Below are positions 14,545 through 53,228 of a stretch of DNA of 64,000 nt, piece after piece (positions within the stretch are counted from its first letter, which is position 1; every line of letters starts with the position of its first letter). Origin of the DNA: Croceicoccus mobilis (lineage in GTDB: Bacteria > Pseudomonadota > Alphaproteobacteria > Sphingomonadales > Sphingomonadaceae). Position numbers and translations under genes: made by a program. The notes under the pieces are model-generated. The model was not told the origin of the DNA. It was given only the letters and a program-made list of their open reading frames with translations, and did no database searches. Where the stretch lies: assembly GCF_001661965.1 (NCBI RefSeq), contig NZ_LYWZ01000022.1, positions 682,001-746,000 of the forward strand, written 5' to 3'.

Positions 14545-15390
14545 CTAGACCGGCTTGGGACCGGGATTGGCTTTCGACAGGGCGCCGCGCCTTTCATTGA
14601 CCAGATTGATGACGGCGGCCGCGGTCTCCTCGATCGAGCGGCGGGTCACGTCGATCACCGGCCAGCCATTGTCGGCGAACATGCGGCGAGCGAATTTCAA
14701 TTCCTTGTTCACCCGCTCTTGGTCGACATAGTCGGTTTCCGGGGTCTGGTTCAAAGACAGCAGGCGATTGCGGCGCACCTGGATCAGCCGGTCCGCCGAT
14801 GTCGTCAGCCCCACGACCAGCGGACGGCGCAGGCCGAAGAGGGCAGGGGGCGGCGGGCTTTCGACGACGATGGGGATATTGGCAGTGCGATAGCCCCTGT
14901 TGGCCAGATAGATCGAGGTCGGCGTTTTCGATGTGCGCGACACGCCGGCAAGGACGATATCGGCCTCTTCCCATTCCTCCCACAGCAGGCCGTCGTCATG
15001 CGCGATGGTGTACTGGATCGCTTCCACGCGGGCGAAATAGGCCTCGTCCATCTTGTGCTGGCGGCCGGGGCGGGCATGCGCCTCTTGCCCCAGCAGGCTG
15101 GAGAGCGAGCGCGTCACCTGATCGAGCGCGGAAACGGTGGCGAGTCCCGCTTCGTGACAGGCGTTTTCCAGTCTTTCGCGGATCTCGGCATTGGCGAGGG
15201 TGAAAAGGACGAGGCCGGGATTGCGCACGATCTCGCCCATGATGCGGTCGAGATGCTGCTGCGAACGCACCATCGGCCAGAAATGGCGATCAATCTCCGC
15301 CCCTTCGAACTGGGCGAGGGCGGCCTTGGCAATCATCTCCAGCGTTTCGCCAGTGGAATCGGACAGCAGGTGCAGATGTAGCCGGGCCAT
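14545..15390 (-). CDS. ppsR: Pyruvate, water dikinase regulatory protein (DUF299; RP001 homologue)
   Basis: PpsR is a bifunctional kinase/phosphorylase that uses ADP to switch PEP synthase or PPDK off and phosphate to switch it on. The 281-residue protein has the family start LHLHLLSDSTGETLEMIAKA, the P-loop ADIVLAGVSRTSKTPTSIYL (about residues 145-164) and the downstream IPIVVESPPPPALF. It is the first leftward gene from the putative origin; this family (RP001 in Rickettsia) flanks the origin opposite hemE in Caulobacter and relatives. That position makes it a useful map anchor. No PEP synthase gene lies in the window. Confidence 0.93.
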   Translation of the reverse strand: MARLHLHLLSDSTGETLEMIAKAALAQFEGAEIDRHFWPMVRSQQHLDRIMGEIVRNPGLVLFTLANAEIRERLENACHEAGLATVSALDQVTRSLSSLLGQEAHARPGRQHKMDEAYFARVEAIQYTIAHDDGLLWEEWEEADIVLAGVSRTSKTPTSIYLANRGYRTANIPIVVESPPPPALFGLRRPLVVGLTTSADRLIQVRRNRLLSLNQTPETDYVDQERVNKELKFARRMFADNGWPVIDVTRRSIEETAAAVINLVNERRGALSKANPGPKPV

Positions 15391-15551
15391 GAAGGTAGTT
15401 ATCGTCTCGCATCGAAAGGATCATGTTGTGTCGCCCGTCATGCAGCGCGGGGCCGGACACTGCAATGGCTGAGTGCGGCACCGGCATGAAGGTGCCCGTC
15501 GATCCCGGGCGGCGACGGATTGGTGCAGAGTTTGGGGAAGCCATGTAGGCT

Positions 15552-15560
15552 TGTGCATAA
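15552..15560 (-). promoter_or_regulatory. DnaA box, perfect TTATGCACA
   Basis: The plus strand reads TGTGCATAA, so the minus strand matches the DnaA consensus TTATNCACA exactly. It lies 40 bases left of the AT-rich island. Confidence 0.75.
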
Positions 15561-15600
15561 GCACGCGGAAAGCCTGCCGGAAACGCGTGGAGCAAGGGGC

Positions 15601-15655
15601 ATCAAATTTCATACAAATAGATGAATCAAAAAGATTTATTTGTGATATGCGTTAT
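15601..15655. other. AT-rich island, candidate DNA unwinding element
   Basis: Bases 15601-15650 contain only 11 G or C out of 50 (22%), in a region otherwise above 55% GC by eye. The stretch includes ATCAAATTTC and AAGATTTATT. An AT-rich tract beside DnaA boxes is the usual strand-opening site of an origin; here this is inferred. Confidence 0.65.
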
Positions 15656-15772
15656 GGCTGATGCCAAGCCCGGTTCGCCCGGATTGGGGTCGCCCCGAAT
15701 GGCGGAATCGCGTGGCCGACAGACCGCCGCCGGGCTTTTGCATTGCGGCGTCGATCCGGCTTGCACGCGCCA

Positions 15773-15781
15773 TGTGGACAA
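15773..15781 (-). promoter_or_regulatory. DnaA-box-like site, TTGTCCACA
   Basis: The minus strand reads TTGTCCACA, one mismatch from TTATCCACA. A further one-mismatch site, TTATGAACA, lies on the minus strand at 15898-15906. Confidence 0.5.
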
Positions 15782-15798
15782 GCACCGGCATAACCCCC

Positions 15799-15839
15799 GG
15801 GATGAACCCGGTGACAGAACCGGGGACGGAATTCATCCC
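15799..15839. repeat. Nested inverted repeat in the origin region
   Basis: The outer arms GGGATGAA (15799-15806) and TTCATCCC (15832-15839) enclose inner arms CCCGGT (15807-15812) and ACCGGG (15819-15824) around a six-base loop. Seven unpaired bases separate the right arms. This could form a cruciform or bind a dimeric protein. Confidence 0.75.
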
Positions 15840-16065
15840 CGCTATGTGCTGGTTCGTCCCGTGGATTCGTGAACATGGAACAGTGATGCCCACAGCCTGT
15901 TCATAAGACTCACAAGTTTCGATTGACGACGCAGCTATCGGGATTCGCATCGGCGGTTTTTCCCTCGCCATGCGGTGATAATTCGGGCAGTGCCGCGTTT
16001 CCCCACAATCCACAGGACCAACAGAGTCCAACAATCTTTTAAAAGACTATTTGGTTTGGAGAGTC

Positions 16066-17097
16066 ATGGCCGGCCCGCTTTTCGATACGCTCAAAGGTTC
16101 CAATCTTGCCGAACGCCCTGTCTGGCTGATGCGCCAGGCCGGACGCTACCTGCCCGAATACCGGGAACTGCGCGCCGAAAAGGGCGGTTTCCTCGCGCTG
16201 GTTTATGACAGCGAGGCCGCGGCCGAGATCACGATGCAGCCGCTGCGCCGTTTCGGCTTCGACGGCGCGATCCTGTTTTCCGACATTCTGATCGTGCCCT
16301 ATGCGATGGGCCAGGACCTCGAATTCCTGGCCGGAGAAGGCCCCAAGCTTTCCCCTCGGCTCGCCGATCATGCGCTGAAGGCGCTGGAAGGGGTGCCAGA
16401 GCGTCTTTCGCCGATCTACCGTACCGTGGAGCTGGTAAAGGCCCAGCTTGCCCCTGAGCAGACCATGCTGGGCTTTGCGGGCGCGCCGTGGACGGTGGCG
16501 ACGTACATGGTGAACGGCGAAGGCAGCCGCGACCAGCATGACACACGGGCGATGGCCTATTCCGATCCGGCGGCTTTTGGCGCGATCATCGACGCAATCA
16601 GCGATGTGACGATCGAATATCTCATCGGCCAGATCGAGGCGGGCGCCGAAGCGGTGCAGATCTTCGACAGCTGGGCGGGTAGCCTGTCGCCGCATGAATT
16701 CGAACGCTGGGTGATTGCGCCAACGGCAAAGATCGTGTCCGCTGTGCGGGCGAAATGTCCTGGGACGCCGATTATCGGCTTCCCGAAAGGCGCTGGCGAG
16801 AAACTGGTGGCCTATGCCCGTGAAACGCGGGTTGATGCCGTGGGTGTGGACGAAACGGTGGATATCGCGTGGGCAGCGCGTGAATTGCCTGAGAACATGC
16901 CGCTTCAGGGAAATCTCGATCCCCTGCTGCTGCTCGCGGGTGGAGAGGCGCTGAAAATCCGTGCGAAGTTCATTCTCGACGCCTGCGCGCATCGTCCGCA
17001 TGTCTTCAACCTGGGGCACGGCATTGGCCAGCACACCCCCATCGCCCATGTCGAGGCGCTGCTGGAGGTGGTGCGCGGCTGGCGCCGACCCGAATAG
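16066..17097 (+). CDS. hemE: Uroporphyrinogen decarboxylase
   Basis: HemE decarboxylates the four acetate side chains of uroporphyrinogen III to give coproporphyrinogen III in heme synthesis. The 343-residue protein has the signature RPVWLMRQAGRYLPEYREL, the segment GAILFSDILIVPYAMG, the active-site region GFAGAPWTVATYMV and GIGQHTPIAHVEALLE near the end. The ATG at 16066 is preceded by GGAG. It is the first rightward gene from the putative origin and is followed 71 bases later by hemJ. hemB is near 39 kb. Confidence 0.97.
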   Translation: MAGPLFDTLKGSNLAERPVWLMRQAGRYLPEYRELRAEKGGFLALVYDSEAAAEITMQPLRRFGFDGAILFSDILIVPYAMGQDLEFLAGEGPKLSPRLADHALKALEGVPERLSPIYRTVELVKAQLAPEQTMLGFAGAPWTVATYMVNGEGSRDQHDTRAMAYSDPAAFGAIIDAISDVTIEYLIGQIEAGAEAVQIFDSWAGSLSPHEFERWVIAPTAKIVSAVRAKCPGTPIIGFPKGAGEKLVAYARETRVDAVGVDETVDIAWAARELPENMPLQGNLDPLLLLAGGEALKIRAKFILDACAHRPHVFNLGHGIGQHTPIAHVEALLEVVRGWRRPE

Positions 17098-17924: not shown

Positions 17925-19178
17925 ATGCACTTGAAAGAACTCAAGCAAAAGACCCCCGCCGAGCTGGTCGAAATGGCCGAGGAGCTTGGCGTCGAGGGCG
18001 CGTCGACGATGCGGCGCCAGGACCTGATGTTCGGGATCCTTAAGGAAGTGGCCGAGGACGAGGAAATCCTCGGTATCGGCACGATCGAGGTGCTGCCCGA
18101 CGGCTTCGGCTTCCTCCGTTCGCCCGAAGCGAACTATCTGGCAGGACCGGACGATATTTATGTTTCGCCCAACCAGGTCCGTAAATTCCAGCTGCGCACC
18201 GGCGACACGGTCGAGGGCGAGATTCGTGCTCCCCGCGATGGCGAACGCTATTTCGCGCTGACCAAGCTGCTGAAGGTCAATTACGACGATCCCGACGCCG
18301 TGCGTCACCGCGTCAATTTCGACAATCTCACCCCGCTCTATCCGGATGAGAAGCTGGTGCTCGACACCGTGGACCCTACGGTTAAGGACAAGTCGGCCCG
18401 CGTCATCGATATCATCTCGCCGCAGGGCAAGGGCCAGCGCGCGCTGATCGTGGCGCCGCCGCGCACGGGTAAGACCGTGCTGCTCCAGAACATCGCCAAG
18501 GCGATCACCGACAATCATCCCGAAGTGTTCCTGCTCGTCCTGCTGGTCGACGAACGTCCGGAAGAAGTCACCGACATGCAGCGCAGCGTGAAGGGCGAGG
18601 TTATCTCCTCGACCTTCGACGAACCCGCATCGCGCCATGTGCAGGTGGCCGAGATGGTGATCGAAAAGGCCAAGCGCCTTGTCGAGCACAAGAAGGATGT
18701 TGTCATCCTGCTCGATTCCATCACGCGCCTTGGCCGTGCCTACAACACCGTCGTCCCGTCATCGGGCAAGGTGCTGACCGGCGGTGTCGATGCGAATGCA
18801 CTGCAGCGCCCGAAGCGCTTCTTCGGTGCGGCCCGCAACATCGAGGAGGGCGGCTCGCTCTCCATCATCGCGACCGCGCTGATCGATACCGGCAGCCGCA
18901 TGGACGAGGTGATCTTCGAAGAGTTCAAGGGCACCGGCAACTCGGAAATCGTGCTCGACCGCAAGGTCGCGGACAAGCGCATCTTCCCGGCGCTGGATGT
19001 CGGCAAGTCCGGCACGCGCAAGGAAGAGCTGCTGGTCGGCAAGGAGCAGCTGTCGAAGATGTGGGTGCTGCGCCGCATCCTCATGCAGATGGGCACGATC
19101 GATTCGATGGAATTCCTTCTCGACAAGATGAAGGATTCGAAGACCAACGAGGACTTCTTCGCCACGATGAACCAGTAA
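17925..19178 (+). CDS. rho: Transcription termination factor Rho
   Basis: Rho is the hexameric RNA helicase that ends many transcripts. The 417-residue protein has the N-terminal helical domain, the RNA-binding cold-shock-like domain with DGFGFLRS (about residues 62-69), the Walker [14 protein letters not shown] (about 174-186), the Walker [17 protein letters not shown] and the Q/R-loop region [20 protein letters not shown]. The ATG at 17925 follows a purine run (CATAAGAAA). It is in the usual origin-side order after hemJ, under its own predicted promoter. Confidence 0.98.
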
Positions 19179-23263: not shown

Positions 23264-23279
23264 TGTTCCACGTGGAACA
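23264..23279. promoter_or_regulatory. parS site 1 (intergenic mnmE-mnmG)
   Basis: TGTTCCACGTGGAACA is a perfect 16-bp palindrome matching the ParB-binding consensus. It lies 2 bases after the mnmE stop and about 7.2 kb from the right end of the putative origin. Confidence 0.95.
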
Positions 23280-23332: not shown

Positions 23333-25192
23333 GTGCATGAATTCGATGTCATCGTTGTCGGCGCCGGTCATGCCGGTTGCGAGGCCGCAGCTGCTGGGGC
23401 CCGCATGGGTGCGCGCACTGCGCTGATTACCTTCGATCCCGGAAAGACGGGCGCAATGTCGTGCAATCCGGCTATCGGCGGATTGGGTAAGGGCCATCTG
23501 GTCAGGGAGGTCGACGCCTTCGACGGATTGATCGCCCGCGCTGCCGACCATGCTGCTATCCACTATCGCATGCTCAACCGTTCAAAGGGCAGTGCGGTGC
23601 AGGGCCCGCGGATTCAGGCGGACAGGCGTCTGTTCCGCGAAGCAATACAGACCATGGTTCGCGGACAAGAGGGTCTCACCGAAATCGCCGGCGAAGTGTC
23701 TGGTCTGGTCCTGGATGGAGACCGGGTCGGCGGTGTCGTCTTGGCCGACGGCAGTGAACTTCGTGCCAGCGCCGTCATCCTGTGCACCGGCACCTTTCTG
23801 GGGGGCCGTCTGTTCCGCGGGGAAGATGTTTTCGAGGGCGGCCGGATACATGAAGCGGGGGCGCAGCTTCTTGCCGCCCAACTTCGCGATGCGGCTCTTC
23901 CGATGTCGCGCCTCAAGACCGGTACTCCGCCCCGGCTTGATGGTCGCACGATTGACTGGGCGCGACTGGAACGGCAGGAATCTGATGCTGACCAGTGGCT
24001 CATGTCGCCGCTATCGCGGCGGCGTAGCAACCCGCAAGTTTTCTGTGCGATCACCCGCACCAATGAGCGGGCGCATGACCATATTCGCAGCGGACTGGAT
24101 CGCTCACCGCTTTTTTCGGGTGCCATCGACGCACGTGGACCGCGCTATTGCCCTTCGATTGAGGACAAGATCCATCGGTTTCCCGATAAGGACGGCCACC
24201 AGATCTTTCTGGAGCCGGAGGGGCTTGATAGTGCGCTGATCTATCCCAACGGGATCAGCACATCTCTGCCGGTCGATGTGCAGCTGGCCATGTTACAGGC
24301 GATCGAGGGGCTGGAACGGGTTCGGGTCGTGGAGCCGGGTTATGCGGTCGAGTACGATCACATTCATCCACGTGCCCTGTCAAAGGACCTACAGGTGAGG
24401 GCCCTGCCAGGCCTCTATTTTGCTGGTCAGATCAATGGCACAACAGGATATGAAGAGGCGGCTGCGCAAGGCCTGCTTGCAGGGTTGAACGCTGCGGCCA
24501 GCGTGCTTGGCCGCGCTGGGCCGGCGATTGATCGCTCGAACAGCTACATGGCGGTAATGGTCGATGACCTCACGCTTCATGGCGTTTCCGAACCCTATCG
24601 CATGCTGACAGCGCGCGCCGAATACCGGCTTCGACTGCGGGCGAATAATGCTGTCAGCCGTCTCACACCAGTCGCTCGTGAGGTCGGATGTCTCGGCGAA
24701 GATCGTCGACAGTGGTATGAAGAGCGGGAAGCGGCGCGAAAGACCGTCGATGATTGGCTGAACACACCCATCGCCCCCTCCGAACTTGTTTCACGTGGAA
24801 CACAGGCTCGGGCCGACATGGGCCGGTTGACGATGCGTGAGTGGTCCCGTTTTGAGAATATACGGGATGATCTGGAAGCCTTGGCCATTTTTGACGGCAT
24901 CGCCATTGATCCAGACATGGCAGAGGAGGTGCGCGAAGATCTGCTCTATGCGCCCTATCTCGAACGTCAGGATGCTGAGCTTCGCGACCTAAAGGCGGCT
25001 GATGCTGTACCCATTCCGCCGGAGTTTGCTTATGGCGCCCTACCCGGACTTTCCAATGAGATGATTGAAAGACTGGAAAGCGCAAAGCCCGACACGGTCG
25101 CGGATGCATCGCGAATTCCCGGAATCACGCCTGCAGCGCTAGCGGTTCTGGTCGTTCAACTGCGAAAATTCGGAACACGGGTCCAGGCATGA
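23333..25192 (+). CDS. mnmG: tRNA uridine-5-carboxymethylaminomethyl modification enzyme MnmG (GidA)
   Basis: MnmG is the FAD-dependent partner of MnmE in wobble-uridine modification. The 619-residue protein starts with the FAD dinucleotide fold [20 protein letters not shown] and contains the signatures [15 protein letters not shown] and [21 protein letters not shown]. The C-terminal helical domain is complete. The start is a GTG at 23333 preceded by AAAGGGG. A parS site (24787-24802) is encoded within the gene, read as LVSRGT. The stop overlaps the rsmG ATG as ATGA. Confidence 0.97.
24787..24802. promoter_or_regulatory. parS site 2 (inside mnmG)
   Basis: TGTTTCACGTGGAACA matches the 16-bp ParB consensus with one non-palindromic pair (TTT/GGA), a variant seen in natural parS sites. 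Confidence 0.92.
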
Positions 25193-25830
25193 CGGGACTG
25201 CAAATCGACAGTCTGGATCGTGAGAAAGCTCAGCACTGGTTGCGCGAAAATCTTAGTTGCAGCGATCCAGTGATCGCCAAGCTTGATCAGTTTGTAGGCC
25301 TCTTGCTTGATGAGGCCGAGCGCCAAAACCTCGTCGCGGATGCGACGAAGCCGGTTTTCTGGACCCGGCACGTGATCGATAGTGCGCAATTGCTTTTGCA
25401 TGTTCCACGTGAAACAGCTTTGCAATGGGTCGATCTCGGCTCCGGGGCCGGGCTGCCCGGCCTCGTTAATGCGATCATCGCTCCGCACCATAGATTCACT
25501 TTGGTCGAACGGCGGCCGCTTCGCACCGATTGGCTCAACAGAGCTGTTGATCGGCTGGATATCAAGAATGTCGAAGTCGTCTCCGCGCCGGTTTCAGCAT
25601 TGCCGGATCAGAGCTTCGATGTCATCACCGCACGTGCGTTTGCGCCGATGCCAAAGCTATTTGCCATGGCAAAGCGGTTTGCATCGGGGAAAACCCTGTG
25701 GATCTTACCCAAGGGAAAGTCGGCAAAACAGGAAATGTCGGCAATTCCGGGTTGGCAAGGCAGGTTCCACGTGGAACCTTCAGTGACAGACGGCGAATCG
25801 GGAATCATCGTCGGATCGCTTCAGCCATGA
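25189..25830 (+). CDS. rsmG: 16S rRNA (guanine527-N7)-methyltransferase RsmG (GidB)
   Basis: RsmG methylates G527 of 16S rRNA using SAM. The 213-residue protein has motif I as [18 protein letters not shown], the preceding VTRHVIDS-like region ([13 protein letters not shown]) and the later [20 protein letters not shown] and [14 protein letters not shown]. It overlaps mnmG by four bases and precedes parA, the classic gidA-gidB-parA-parB order. Two parS sites are encoded inside it, which fixes parts of its protein sequence (HVPRET and FHVEP). Confidence 0.96.
25401..25416. promoter_or_regulatory. parS site 3 (inside rsmG)
   Basis: TGTTCCACGTGAAACA is identical to the canonical parS consensus. 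It is read in frame through codons for VPRET. Confidence 0.95.
25763..25778. promoter_or_regulatory. parS site 4 (near the end of rsmG)
   Basis: GGTTCCACGTGGAACC is a perfect palindrome differing from parS site 1 only at the two outermost bases. The core TTCCACGTGGAA is intact, so ParB binding is likely but may be weaker. Confidence 0.8.
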
Positions 25831-25897
25831 TGCGCTTGCCAGGCTTGACGCATGGGTTCGGGCGATGCGGGACCAGTTTAATCGGTGGGGTATGCGG

Positions 25898-26674
25898 ATG
25901 ATTGTGATTGCGATCGCCAACCAAAAGGGTGGTGTGGGAAAGACGACGACTGCGATCAATCTGGCCACTGCCTTTGCAGCGTCGGGTTGGCGCAGCCTGC
26001 TGATTGATCTGGATCCTCAGGGCAATGCCTCTACGGGCTTGGGGATTGGATCGGCCGATCGCGAGAATTCCAGCTATGAGCTGCTGCTGGACGAAGCTGC
26101 GCTTGCCGACTGCACACGTGAAACCTCGATCCCGCTTCTCGACATTGTTCCGGCCACTGTCGACCTGTCGGGTGCCGAGGTGGAGCTGGTGGGTGTCGAT
26201 GGCAGAACGCAGCTGCTTCGCAACGCGCTAGAGGGTTGCGGCGATTACGACATTGCCTTCATCGATTGTCCTCCTTCACTAGGGCTGCTGACGCTCAACG
26301 GGCTTGTCGCGGCGGATAAGCTGCTCGTTCCGCTTCAGTGCGAATTCTTTGCGTTGGAAGGGCTCTCGCAGCTGTTGCAGACGGTCGAACAGGTGCAGCA
26401 GCGTTTCAACGCCGATCTTGGCATCGTGGGAATCACGCTCACCATGTATGACCGTCGCAATCGGTTGACCGACCAGGTTTCCGATGATGTGCGCGAAGTG
26501 CTGGGCAAGCTGGTGTTCGACACCGTGGTGCCGCGCAATGTCCGCCTGTCCGAAGCGCCGAGCCATGGGCTTCCGGCGCTTGTCTATGATCACAATTGTG
26601 CCGGTTCGCGCGCCTATATGGATCTTGCGCGGGAATTGATCGACCGGCTCCCCGAACGGAGGAAAGCGGCATGA
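25898..26674 (+). CDS. parA: Chromosome partitioning ATPase ParA
   Basis: ParA is the Walker-type ATPase that, with ParB-parS, moves the newly copied origin to the opposite pole. The 258-residue protein starts MIVIAIANQKGGVGKTTTAI with the deviant Walker A, then LLIDLDPQGNASTGLG and DIAFIDCPPSLGLLTLNGLV. I prefer the ATG at 25898 because GGTGGGG lies about seven bases upstream; an ATG at 25892 in the same frame is the alternative. It overlaps parB by four bases and follows the parS cluster. Confidence 0.97.
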   Translation: MIVIAIANQKGGVGKTTTAINLATAFAASGWRSLLIDLDPQGNASTGLGIGSADRENSSYELLLDEAALADCTRETSIPLLDIVPATVDLSGAEVELVGVDGRTQLLRNALEGCGDYDIAFIDCPPSLGLLTLNGLVAADKLLVPLQCEFFALEGLSQLLQTVEQVQQRFNADLGIVGITLTMYDRRNRLTDQVSDDVREVLGKLVFDTVVPRNVRLSEAPSHGLPALVYDHNCAGSRAYMDLARELIDRLPERRKAA

Positions 26675-27660
26675 ACAAGCCCGCGACGAAGCCCGATCCC
26701 AAACCTGCCAAGCGCCGCGCCGCGCTGGGCCGGGGTCTTGGCGCTCTCTTGGGCGATGCGCAGCGCGAGGAGCCGGTTGCACGTGCACCCTCTGCCGATG
26801 CGCCAGCAGCTGGAGCTAGTGCCGCTGCGCCCGCTGCGGTGATCGAGGCTCCCAGCAGCGGACTTGCCTCGCTGCCCATCGCATCGATCGAACCGCACCC
26901 CGAAAACCCGCGTGTGGAGTTCGAGGAAGGCGCTCTGGAAGAGCTGGCCGCCTCGATCGGTGCGCGCGGCGTGATCCAGCCGGTGATCGTGCGCCCCGGT
27001 GCGGGCGGCCGGTATCAGCTGGTCGCCGGTGAGCGCCGCTGGAGGGCCGCTCAGAAGGCACAACTCCATGAAATTCCAGCAATTATTCGCGATCTCAATG
27101 ACCGGGAAGTCACCGCGCTTGCCCTGATCGAGAATATTCAGCGCGAAGATCTCAATCCGATGGAAGAGGCGAGGGCGTATAATCGCCTGTCCAACCGCGA
27201 TGGCATGGCGCAGGCCGAAATCGCCAAGCTGGTCGACAAGTCGCGCAGCCATGTGACGAACCTGATGCGCCTGCTCAGCCTGCCCGAAGGGGTGCAGACC
27301 CGCGTGGAGAAGGGCGAGTTGTCGATGGGCCATGCCCGCGCGCTCATCAATTGCGAGGATGCCGAGGTGATCGCCGAGCAGGCCATCGCGAAGAAGCTTT
27401 CTGTCCGCGATGTCGAACGCATGGTGCGCAAGGCGAATGCCGGCGATGCGCCGGCACCCGCTCGCCGCACGGCGCGCGAACCTCGGCCCGGAGAGGATGC
27501 CGACATCCTTGCCGTGCAGACGCAGCTGGAAGAGGCGCTGGGTTTGCCGGTGCAGATTCAGGCGGATGCCGATCCGGCTTCGGGCACGGTCACGATCCGC
27601 TACAAGACGCTGGATCAGCTCGACCTTGTCTGCCAGCGCCTGACCGGCGGCGAAATCTAG
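26671..27660 (+). CDS. parB: Chromosome partitioning protein ParB (CTPase, parS-binding)
   Basis: ParB binds parS, clamps and spreads using CTP, and stimulates ParA. The 329-residue protein has an N-terminal basic segment with the ParA-stimulating RRAALGRGLGALLGD, an Ala/Pro-rich linker, the CTP-binding motifs PRVEFEEGALEELAASI and LVAGERRWRAAQKA, and ALIENIQREDLNPMEEA. The helix-turn-helix is MAQAEIAKLVDKSRSHVTNL, and a C-terminal dimerisation domain ends in the last 60 residues. Its stop TAG shares the palindromic CTAG (27657-27660) with the stop of the convergent gene. Confidence 0.98.
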   Translation: MNKPATKPDPKPAKRRAALGRGLGALLGDAQREEPVARAPSADAPAAGASAAAPAAVIEAPSSGLASLPIASIEPHPENPRVEFEEGALEELAASIGARGVIQPVIVRPGAGGRYQLVAGERRWRAAQKAQLHEIPAIIRDLNDREVTALALIENIQREDLNPMEEARAYNRLSNRDGMAQAEIAKLVDKSRSHVTNLMRLLSLPEGVQTRVEKGELSMGHARALINCEDAEVIAEQAIAKKLSVRDVERMVRKANAGDAPAPARRTAREPRPGEDADILAVQTQLEEALGLPVQIQADADPASGTVTIRYKTLDQLDLVCQRLTGGEI

Positions 27661-51823: not shown

Positions 51824-52261
51824 TCAGGCCTCGGGATAGAGGCGATATTCCTCGACAGGCACGCCGCCGATCAGATGTTCCTGGATAATGCGCTCCAGCA
51901 CCGGCGGGCGGCAGCCCCAGTACCAGACCCCTTCGGGATAGACGACGGCCAGCGGCCCCGCCGCGCAGACGCGCAGGCAGTTCGCCTTGGTCCGCATGAT
52001 GCCGCCATCCCGGTCCAGCCCCAGTTCGGCAAGGCGCTTTTTCAGGTAGTCCCAGCTCTCGATCCCGGTCGAAAGCGGACAGCACTTTGGCTTCGTCTGG
52101 TCGGCGCAAAGGAAGATATGGCGCCGGAACGCATCGCCGCCGCCCAGAGCGGAGAGTTCCGCTTGCGCTTCGGGTAGCGAAATCGGCTGACGCACGGGCG
52201 CGGGCCGATCGCCCGCCGCATTTGCACCGTGGGGATCAGAGGCGTCCGGTGATTCGGGCAA
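51824..52261 (-). CDS. Thioredoxin-like [2Fe-2S] ferredoxin family protein
   Basis: The protein resembles the (2Fe-2S) ferredoxin domain seen in NuoE-like and NAD-reducing hydrogenase subunits. The cluster ligands are in [19 protein letters not shown] and [20 protein letters not shown], followed by [13 protein letters not shown]. The longest frame begins at a TTG at 52261 and overlaps popZ by 26 bases; a GTG at 52192 is an alternative start ([10 protein letters not shown]). The redox partner is unknown. Confidence 0.85.
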
Positions 52262-53228
52262 TCTCGCGCTCTACGATCTTTTCGACCATGCCGGGCATGT
52301 TGTCATCGAGCCATTGCTTGAGCATGGGACGCATCATCTCGCGCACCATGTCCTCCAGCGGATTGGCGGTTCCAGCGGGCTTGCTCGGCTCAGGCGTGGA
52401 AGCAACCGACTGCAATGCGGCAAAGCTGTCGCGCAGAGTGGCCGCAGCGGCGCCGGCGATCAGCGATTCGCTGTCATCGGCTGCCGGCGTACCCGCATTC
52501 TCTTCTTCCACCTCGTCTTCAGCGCCCGGCGTGGCCGCCAACGGCTCGGCCTCGCTGAGATCTACGGGCTCCGCCTCGACTTCGGTCACCGGTTCGGGTT
52601 CCGCTTCAGCTTCCGGCAGGGCGGCGACCGGTTCAGCTTCGGGCAGGGGCTCGGCCCCATAGGGCGGCTCAAGGGTGATCGACGGGGTCGTGTCCTCGTC
52701 CTCAACCGGCTCCGCAGCGGCGAGAGGGACCGCCCCATCCTCAGTCTCGGATACAGCCTCGTCTTCGCCCGAGAACGCCGAACCATAGGGGTTCGCGGCA
52801 GGCGCAGGCTCTGCCCCTTCGTCCTCGGCAAGCGGCGGCAGGACGGGCGGCACGATCATGCGAACCTCGTCAGGCTCCGATGCGCTGTCCTGCTCCGCGC
52901 CGGGCTCGACATCGCTTTCGTCCAGCTCCAGCGCATCGCTGTCGAGGCTCTTCAGATCAAAGACGTCGGTACGGCCCTCGGCTTCGGCCTCTTCCTTAGG
53001 CTCCTTGTCCTCGACAAAGGACGAGGTCACGTCGGGAACGCGCGATCCAAAGGGCGAATGGCGAGTGAAGCTGTAGGGTGTGGGCGAAAAGCCGCCAGGG
53101 CGTTCCGATCCCGGCGCGCCATCCTCCCCACGCGGGGTCGGCGCACGCGGGCCATCCTCGCGCGAAATTACCTGTTTGATCGAGCGCAGAATGTCCTCGA
53201 CCGATGCTTCGCCGTCTTTGTGCGCCAT
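52236..53228 (-). CDS. popZ: Polar organizing protein PopZ family (DUF2497)
   Basis: PopZ forms a polymer at the cell pole that captures ParB-parS and so anchors the origin. The 330-residue protein has the family's three parts: an N-terminal helix ([18 protein letters not shown]), a long acidic, Pro/Glu/Ala-rich disordered middle (about residues 25-265) and a C-terminal oligomerisation region, [20 protein letters not shown], then [16 protein letters not shown]. The middle is longer than in Caulobacter PopZ (177 residues in all). tolC and pcm lie upstream on the same strand, as in Caulobacter. Confidence 0.92.

Follow-up and report, generated by a model that had tools for sequence, protein, structure and literature searches.

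The gap between ppsR and hemE as the very probable chromosomal replication origin of Croceicoccus mobilis, with a species-specific extension on its ppsR side

Does the gene-free gap between the divergently transcribed ppsR and hemE genes of Croceicoccus mobilis hold the chromosomal replication origin, oriC, and which parts of the gap are likely to matter for initiation? The gap lies in a stretch of 64,000 nucleotides (the window), which is part of a 948-kb contig (C15) in a 32-contig draft assembly of 4.2 Mb. An origin flanked by hemE and COG1806 is known for Caulobacter and Rickettsia (PMC1914354). Closer by, an oriC near hemE has been predicted for Sphingopyxis granuli TFA, with gene order and DnaA boxes both conserved and with a putative DNA unwinding element (DUE), and for Novosphingobium PP1Y, with three DnaA boxes (PMC4741004, PMC4059872). 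A literature search for oriC in Croceicoccus returned no paper on this origin, judged by title. The hemE-RP001 type of origin is known; the instance described here, with its species-specific enlargement, is new.

The original prediction placed oriC in a 675-base gene-free gap with outward-facing genes, and profile matches for ppsR and hemE bear out that arrangement (Table 1). It also named a minimum of cumulative GC skew as a check. Because the genome is a 32-contig draft, the skew curve spans 360 kb around the gap rather than the whole chromosome, and within this part of the contig the minimum falls at window position 14551, 840 bp to the left of the gap. The best change-point in skew is at 15001 (p 0.007 by permutation of 10-kb blocks). 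The skew of the genome itself is weak, with -0.007 on one side and +0.014 on the other, which counts against the assignment. Polar words were also counted on both sides of the gap. The polarity of GGGNAGGG, the best of four words tried, flips at the gap, from 10 on the plus strand and 23 on the minus strand to the left to 30 and 11 to the right (Fisher p 0.0004). For GGGAAGG the p-value is 0.043 and for GGGCAGGG it is 0.09, while AGGGCAGG is equal on both sides.

The skew of five relatives was sampled in 20 stretches of 20 kb from the main contig of each genome (G003, G005, G010, G027 and G036). In all five, with a less sharp switch in G005, mean skew changes sign at the hemE/ppsR gap: it is positive in the half that runs from the gap to higher coordinates and negative in the other half. 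The permutation p-values are 0.007, 0.00015, 0.00025 and, twice, 0 of 20,000. The gap is the top-scoring skew position in G003, G027 and G036. The gap is equalled or outscored by 1.5% of candidate positions in G010 and by 2.9% in G005, where the best fit lies about 150-230 kb from the gap.

The gene neighbourhood is equally regular. A hemE gene was found in all 40 genomes searched, that of C. mobilis included, and the hemE locus was obtained for 30 of them; ppsR lies directly upstream of hemE in 29 of the 30, again counting C. mobilis. The thirtieth, G036, has the two genes adjacent if the ends of its record are joined as a circle. Of the ten remaining genomes, G027 was checked for ppsR, and there too the genes are adjacent. 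A further set of named loci gave adjacency in 63 of 63, two of which repeat genomes of the 30-locus set. The G036 record starts no more than 60 bases from the ppsR match and has hemE at the opposite end; one guess at the reason is that the circle was deliberately opened at the origin.

The original prediction also put parABS and popZ in the window, and parS, parA, parB and a popZ-type gene were all found there. Exact parS-type sites number only three in the genome, all of them 7-10 kb from the gap and beside parAB. This proximity resembles that in Caulobacter, where parS lies about 8 kb from the origin, Cori.

The skew switch, the gene neighbourhood, the parS cluster and the comparison with relatives agree, and oriC is therefore placed in the gap, very probably correctly as far as the gap itself is concerned; that confidence does not extend to each mechanistic step. 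Four sequence features of the hemE-RP001 class are found here, namely hemE and DUF299 flanks, a skew switch, a cluster of DnaA boxes and an AT-rich stretch. The gap might instead be a mere divergent promoter region for ppsR and hemE, with oriC elsewhere, for example beside dnaA. That gene does not adjoin the gap, its best PF00308 match being at C15:586570-587052, about 110 kb to the left, and DnaA boxes are also known from gene promoters. A dnaA gene distant from the origin is, however, ordinary in this class, and both the skew change-point and the flip of the polar word sit at the gap and not at dnaA. Since five relatives also switch skew at or close to hemE-ppsR, and since parS sites cluster near the gap, a promoter region with a remote origin is highly improbable. 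Placing oriC in the gap fixes the replication map of the genome and, for the relatives sampled, agrees with the hemE-COG1806 rule of the literature.

Table 1. Positions of features at and around the gap, in window coordinates
Feature	Positions	Strand	Evidence or remark
ppsR (DUF299/RP001-type kinase-pyrophosphorylase), left boundary gene	14545..15390	-	PF03618 E 3.9e-93; NF003742 E 2.9e-97
Intergenic gap, very probably containing oriC	15391..16065		Divergent genes, skew switch, DnaA boxes
ppsR-side extension	15391..15770		About 380 bp, against about 50 in nearest relatives (alignment)
Perfect DnaA box TTATGCACA, in extension	15552..15560	-	CACA end towards ppsR
AT island in extension, 18% GC	15604..15648		Lowest-GC 45-mer in 360 kb of contig
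Nested inverted repeat (hairpin-forming)	15770..15864		z -3.92
Alignable origin core, about 295 bp	15771..16065		Alignments with 4 and 17 relatives
DnaA-box-like TTGTCCACA, left end of core	15773..15781	-	Sequence match, alignment
CCCACAGCCTGTTCATAAG block, common to relatives	15889..15907		Includes DnaA-box-like TTATGAACA, 15898-15906 (-)
GANTC site GATTC	15942..15946		One aligned column in all 18 aligned sequences
TTCCCCACAATCCACAGG: weak box TCCCCA plus CAATCCACA box	15999..16016	+	CAATCCACA at 16006-16014, CACA end towards hemE-side AT-rich stretch
hemE-side AT-rich stretch, 33% GC, usual DUE position	16020..16065		Location of AT-rich minimum in family-level gaps
GANTC site GAGTC after CAACA	16024..16028		CAACAGANTC in 25 of 47 gaps with CCACAGGNNCAAC
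hemE, right boundary gene	16066..17097	+	ATG at 16066; TIGR01464 E 8.7e-117
rho, origin-side gene	17925..19178	+	TIGR00767 E 2e-207
parS-type site TGTTCCACGTGGAACA	23264..23279		Exact sequence match
parS-type site TGTTTCACGTGGAACA	24787..24802		Exact sequence match
parS-type site TGTTCCACGTGAAACA	25401..25416		Exact sequence match
parA	25865..26674	+	PF13614 E 2.5e-59
parB	26596..27660 (listed ORF; the real start is probably more internal)	+	PF02195, PF17762, PF23552
popZ-type gene (DUF2497)	52236..53228	-	PF10691 E 1.3e-23 at C15:734248-734469 (window 52248-52469)

Which parts of the gap are shared was addressed with a collection of gaps from related genomes. From 92 gaps, G012 and G021 were removed as duplicates of the named loci L121 and L171, other overlaps being checked by eye, to leave 90; the 83 family-level gaps are these 90 minus G030, G035, G032, G038, G029, G024 and L181. 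In a DNA search, parts of the last 230 bp of the gap were matched in 10 of 13 other genomes of the genus. Alignment with the four nearest relatives is possible from the box at 15773 rightwards, and the segment 15771-15880 outscores all 200 shuffles against the gaps of four of five relatives, the exception being G006. The blocks common to 17 relatives fall within about 15885-16060 and comprise CCCACAGCCTGTTCATAAG, TTGAC, GANTC, TCCCC, ATCCACAGG, CAAC and an AT-rich end. In all but two of the 83 family-level gaps, the start of the AT-rich minimum is no more than 110 nt from the hemE match. Exact core words fade with distance, which counts against the assignment: ACAG[GC]CTG occurs in 63 of the 83, CCACAGG near hemE in 58 (absent in 25), and TTGAC with GANTC after it in just 23 (absent in 60).

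Every individual element of the original prediction is present where it was placed, including the perfect TTATGCACA box, the degenerate boxes at 15773 and 15898, the TCCCCACA word at 16000 and the AT-rich island. The anatomy drawn from them stood in part. The two degenerate boxes and the block at 15999-16016 belong to the shared part, but the perfect box and the AT island lie in a species-specific extension outside the alignable core. Likewise, the nested inverted repeat exists and, as RNA, folds well here (1 of 200 shuffles as good), but it was rejected as a shared part of the origin, the corresponding stretch having z-scores of -1.0 to +1.4 in eight relatives (G007 and G010 left out). Since comparison separates the core from the extension, picking origin parts from a single sequence, such as a perfect box or an AT island, can point to DNA that is not shared.

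The DnaA boxes carry most weight as a group. Words with at most one mismatch to TTATNCACA number three in the gap against 0.34 in shuffles, none of 500 shuffles reaching three, and 0.5% of the 675-bp stretches of the window hold three or more. Across the 90 gaps, that of C. mobilis included, 174 such words were counted, a tenfold enrichment over the 17.4 found on average in 20 rounds of shuffling, none of which gave more than 26. There is only one perfect DnaA box in the gap, which counts against the assignment. Over the 4.2 Mb genome, TTATNCACA shows no excess, with 21 occurrences against 23 for the reversed control, although TTATGCACA by itself occurs 8 times against 2. Because TTATNCACA is no commoner than its reversed control, the lone perfect box is weaker evidence than the cluster. 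DnaA-trio modules were sought with a published rule, in which a DnaA box with at most two mismatches is followed within 16 bp by at least three 3'-NAN-5' triplets (PMC8287927). By this rule, 37 of the 90 gaps have a module, against 8.05 in letter shuffles, and the C. mobilis gap has none, which counts against the assignment; it does not show the order of DnaA-box, spacer and DnaA-trios that defines the BUS class.

The locus both resembles and departs from Cori of Caulobacter crescentus. The flanking hemE and COG1806 genes are shared (PMC1914354), as are DnaA-box-like sites with the W-box word TCCCCA (PMC4285127) and an AT-rich stretch. In contrast, Cori has five CtrA boxes (PMC8959179), whereas a search for the perfect CtrA motif, TTAA-N7-TTAA, found it in none of the 90 gaps, a further point against the assignment; by this motif the origin is not of the CtrA-gated Caulobacter type. 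The G-box TGATCCACA of Cori is also not among the five box-like words of the C. mobilis gap.

GANTC sites are in excess in the gap, with seven against 2.8 in shuffles (p 0.018), and a gene with a RAMA domain, of the CcrM C-terminal type, is present in the genome. Both fit, and suggest, control of the origin by CcrM-type methylation. Among the 47 gaps with CCACAGGNNCAAC, the word is followed by CAAC[TA]A[CA] in 19 and by the trio-like CAACTA[CT] in 11, and a methylation site and a DnaA-trio may alternate at this one place.

The location of oriC is drawn from composition and comparison, and each molecular step suggested for it is modelled on other bacteria. DnaA would bind the shared boxes at 15773, 15898 and 15999-16014. 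The box at 16006-16014 points towards the hemE-side AT-rich stretch; there the strands would open and the helicase be loaded. Because the trio rule finds no module in the gap, this most likely site of unwinding is chosen by position and AT content. Two forks would then depart in opposite directions, and ParB bound to parS 7-10 kb away would segregate the new origins. The GANTC sites in the core could serve, through CcrM-type methylation, as a timing mark.

There remains the question of what the ppsR-side extension is. Counted between the start of ppsR and the hemE match, the C. mobilis gap spans 660 bp, roughly double the 300-389 bp of the 82 other family-level gaps. The extra length is about 330 bp, and even the longest of those 82 gaps falls short by 271 bp; outliers at the level of the order reach 486 bp. 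The Pelagerythrobacter aerophilus Ery1 assembly has hemE-ppsR loci on two contigs (L155 and L182), with an equal gap (320) and the same box word. No match to 15391-15880 was found in 13 other genomes of the genus, and none to the whole gap in plasmids. For 15391-15770, with two candidates scored per genome, the matches listed come from 6 of 297 other genomes of the family and are only 29-44 bp long (E 4e-5 to 1e-3). A direct duplication of the core was tried as a source and rejected, its alignment being no better than shuffles (64%; 83%, 26% and 65% as good). A small RNA in the extension is likewise unsupported: the window has no Rfam match, a consensus scan of the extension gave no terminator-like or sigma-70-like site, and folding was no better than shuffles for 15391-15530, 15480-15600 on the minus strand, 15640-15785, and 15655-15745 on both strands.

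The extension is most likely a lineage-specific addition that is dispensable for basic origin function. The probable explanation is an insertion, neutral or regulatory, that is either the decayed remnant of a mobile element or a lengthened leader of ppsR and that may yield a small transcript. It accords with the missing matches in the genus and in plasmids and with stop-free frames of up to 87 codons in 15391-15900, none of which has support, although the scans for promoter, terminator, RNA family and folding given above count against it. Another reading is that oriC has recently been enlarged, such that the extra 330 bp, with the AT island and the perfect box at 15552, acts as a second, lineage-specific unwinding or regulatory module beside the ancestral one near hemE. 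The island has the lowest GC content of any 45-mer in 360 kb, it sits within a gap of exceptional length for the family, and the extension carries the only perfect box of the gap. Aligned in inverted orientation with its own core, the extension scores such that 4% of letter shuffles are as good, as are 8%, 69% and 1% of dinucleotide shuffles under three scorings. Similar alignments with the gaps of 11 relatives leave at most 2.5% of shuffles as good for three of them (G008, G009 and G010) under the first scoring, and none falls below 5% under the other two. An inverted duplication of the core as the source of the extension is thus suggestive under two scorings but disappears under the strictest, in which 69% of shuffles do as well, and it is not established. 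Other features count against a second module. The ppsR-side minimum GC is at least 0.38 in the 82 other family-level gaps, the number of boxes in the extension alone is at chance (1 against 0.21, with 20% of shuffles reaching 1), and there is no trio module in the gap. In known unwinding modules the box faces the stretch that is opened, whereas the CACA end of the box at 15552 faces ppsR, away from the island. A two-module oriC is unlikely.

If the cell did use the extension, origin remodelling could be tested here, and the enlarged oriC would serve as a natural experiment on how new modules are added to bacterial origins. It can be compared with the bipartite origins of Bacillus subtilis and Helicobacter pylori, in which a single origin region likewise holds DnaA-box-like sites in distinct groups; unlike those origins, this gap has no spacer gene, and its second module is putative and species-specific (PMC4285127).

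Two observations were made elsewhere in the genome. On contig C21 (100375-100787; 9376-9788 of locus L028), considered as another possible origin, two perfect TTATGCACA boxes lie 404 bp apart on opposite strands, in what looks like the neighbourhood of phage genes. Contigs C2, C3, C18 and C21 each have an equal weak match to the DnaA domain (29.8 bits) within 2.3 kb of a contig end, and these four are probably copies of a single insertion-sequence ATPase that breaks the assembly.
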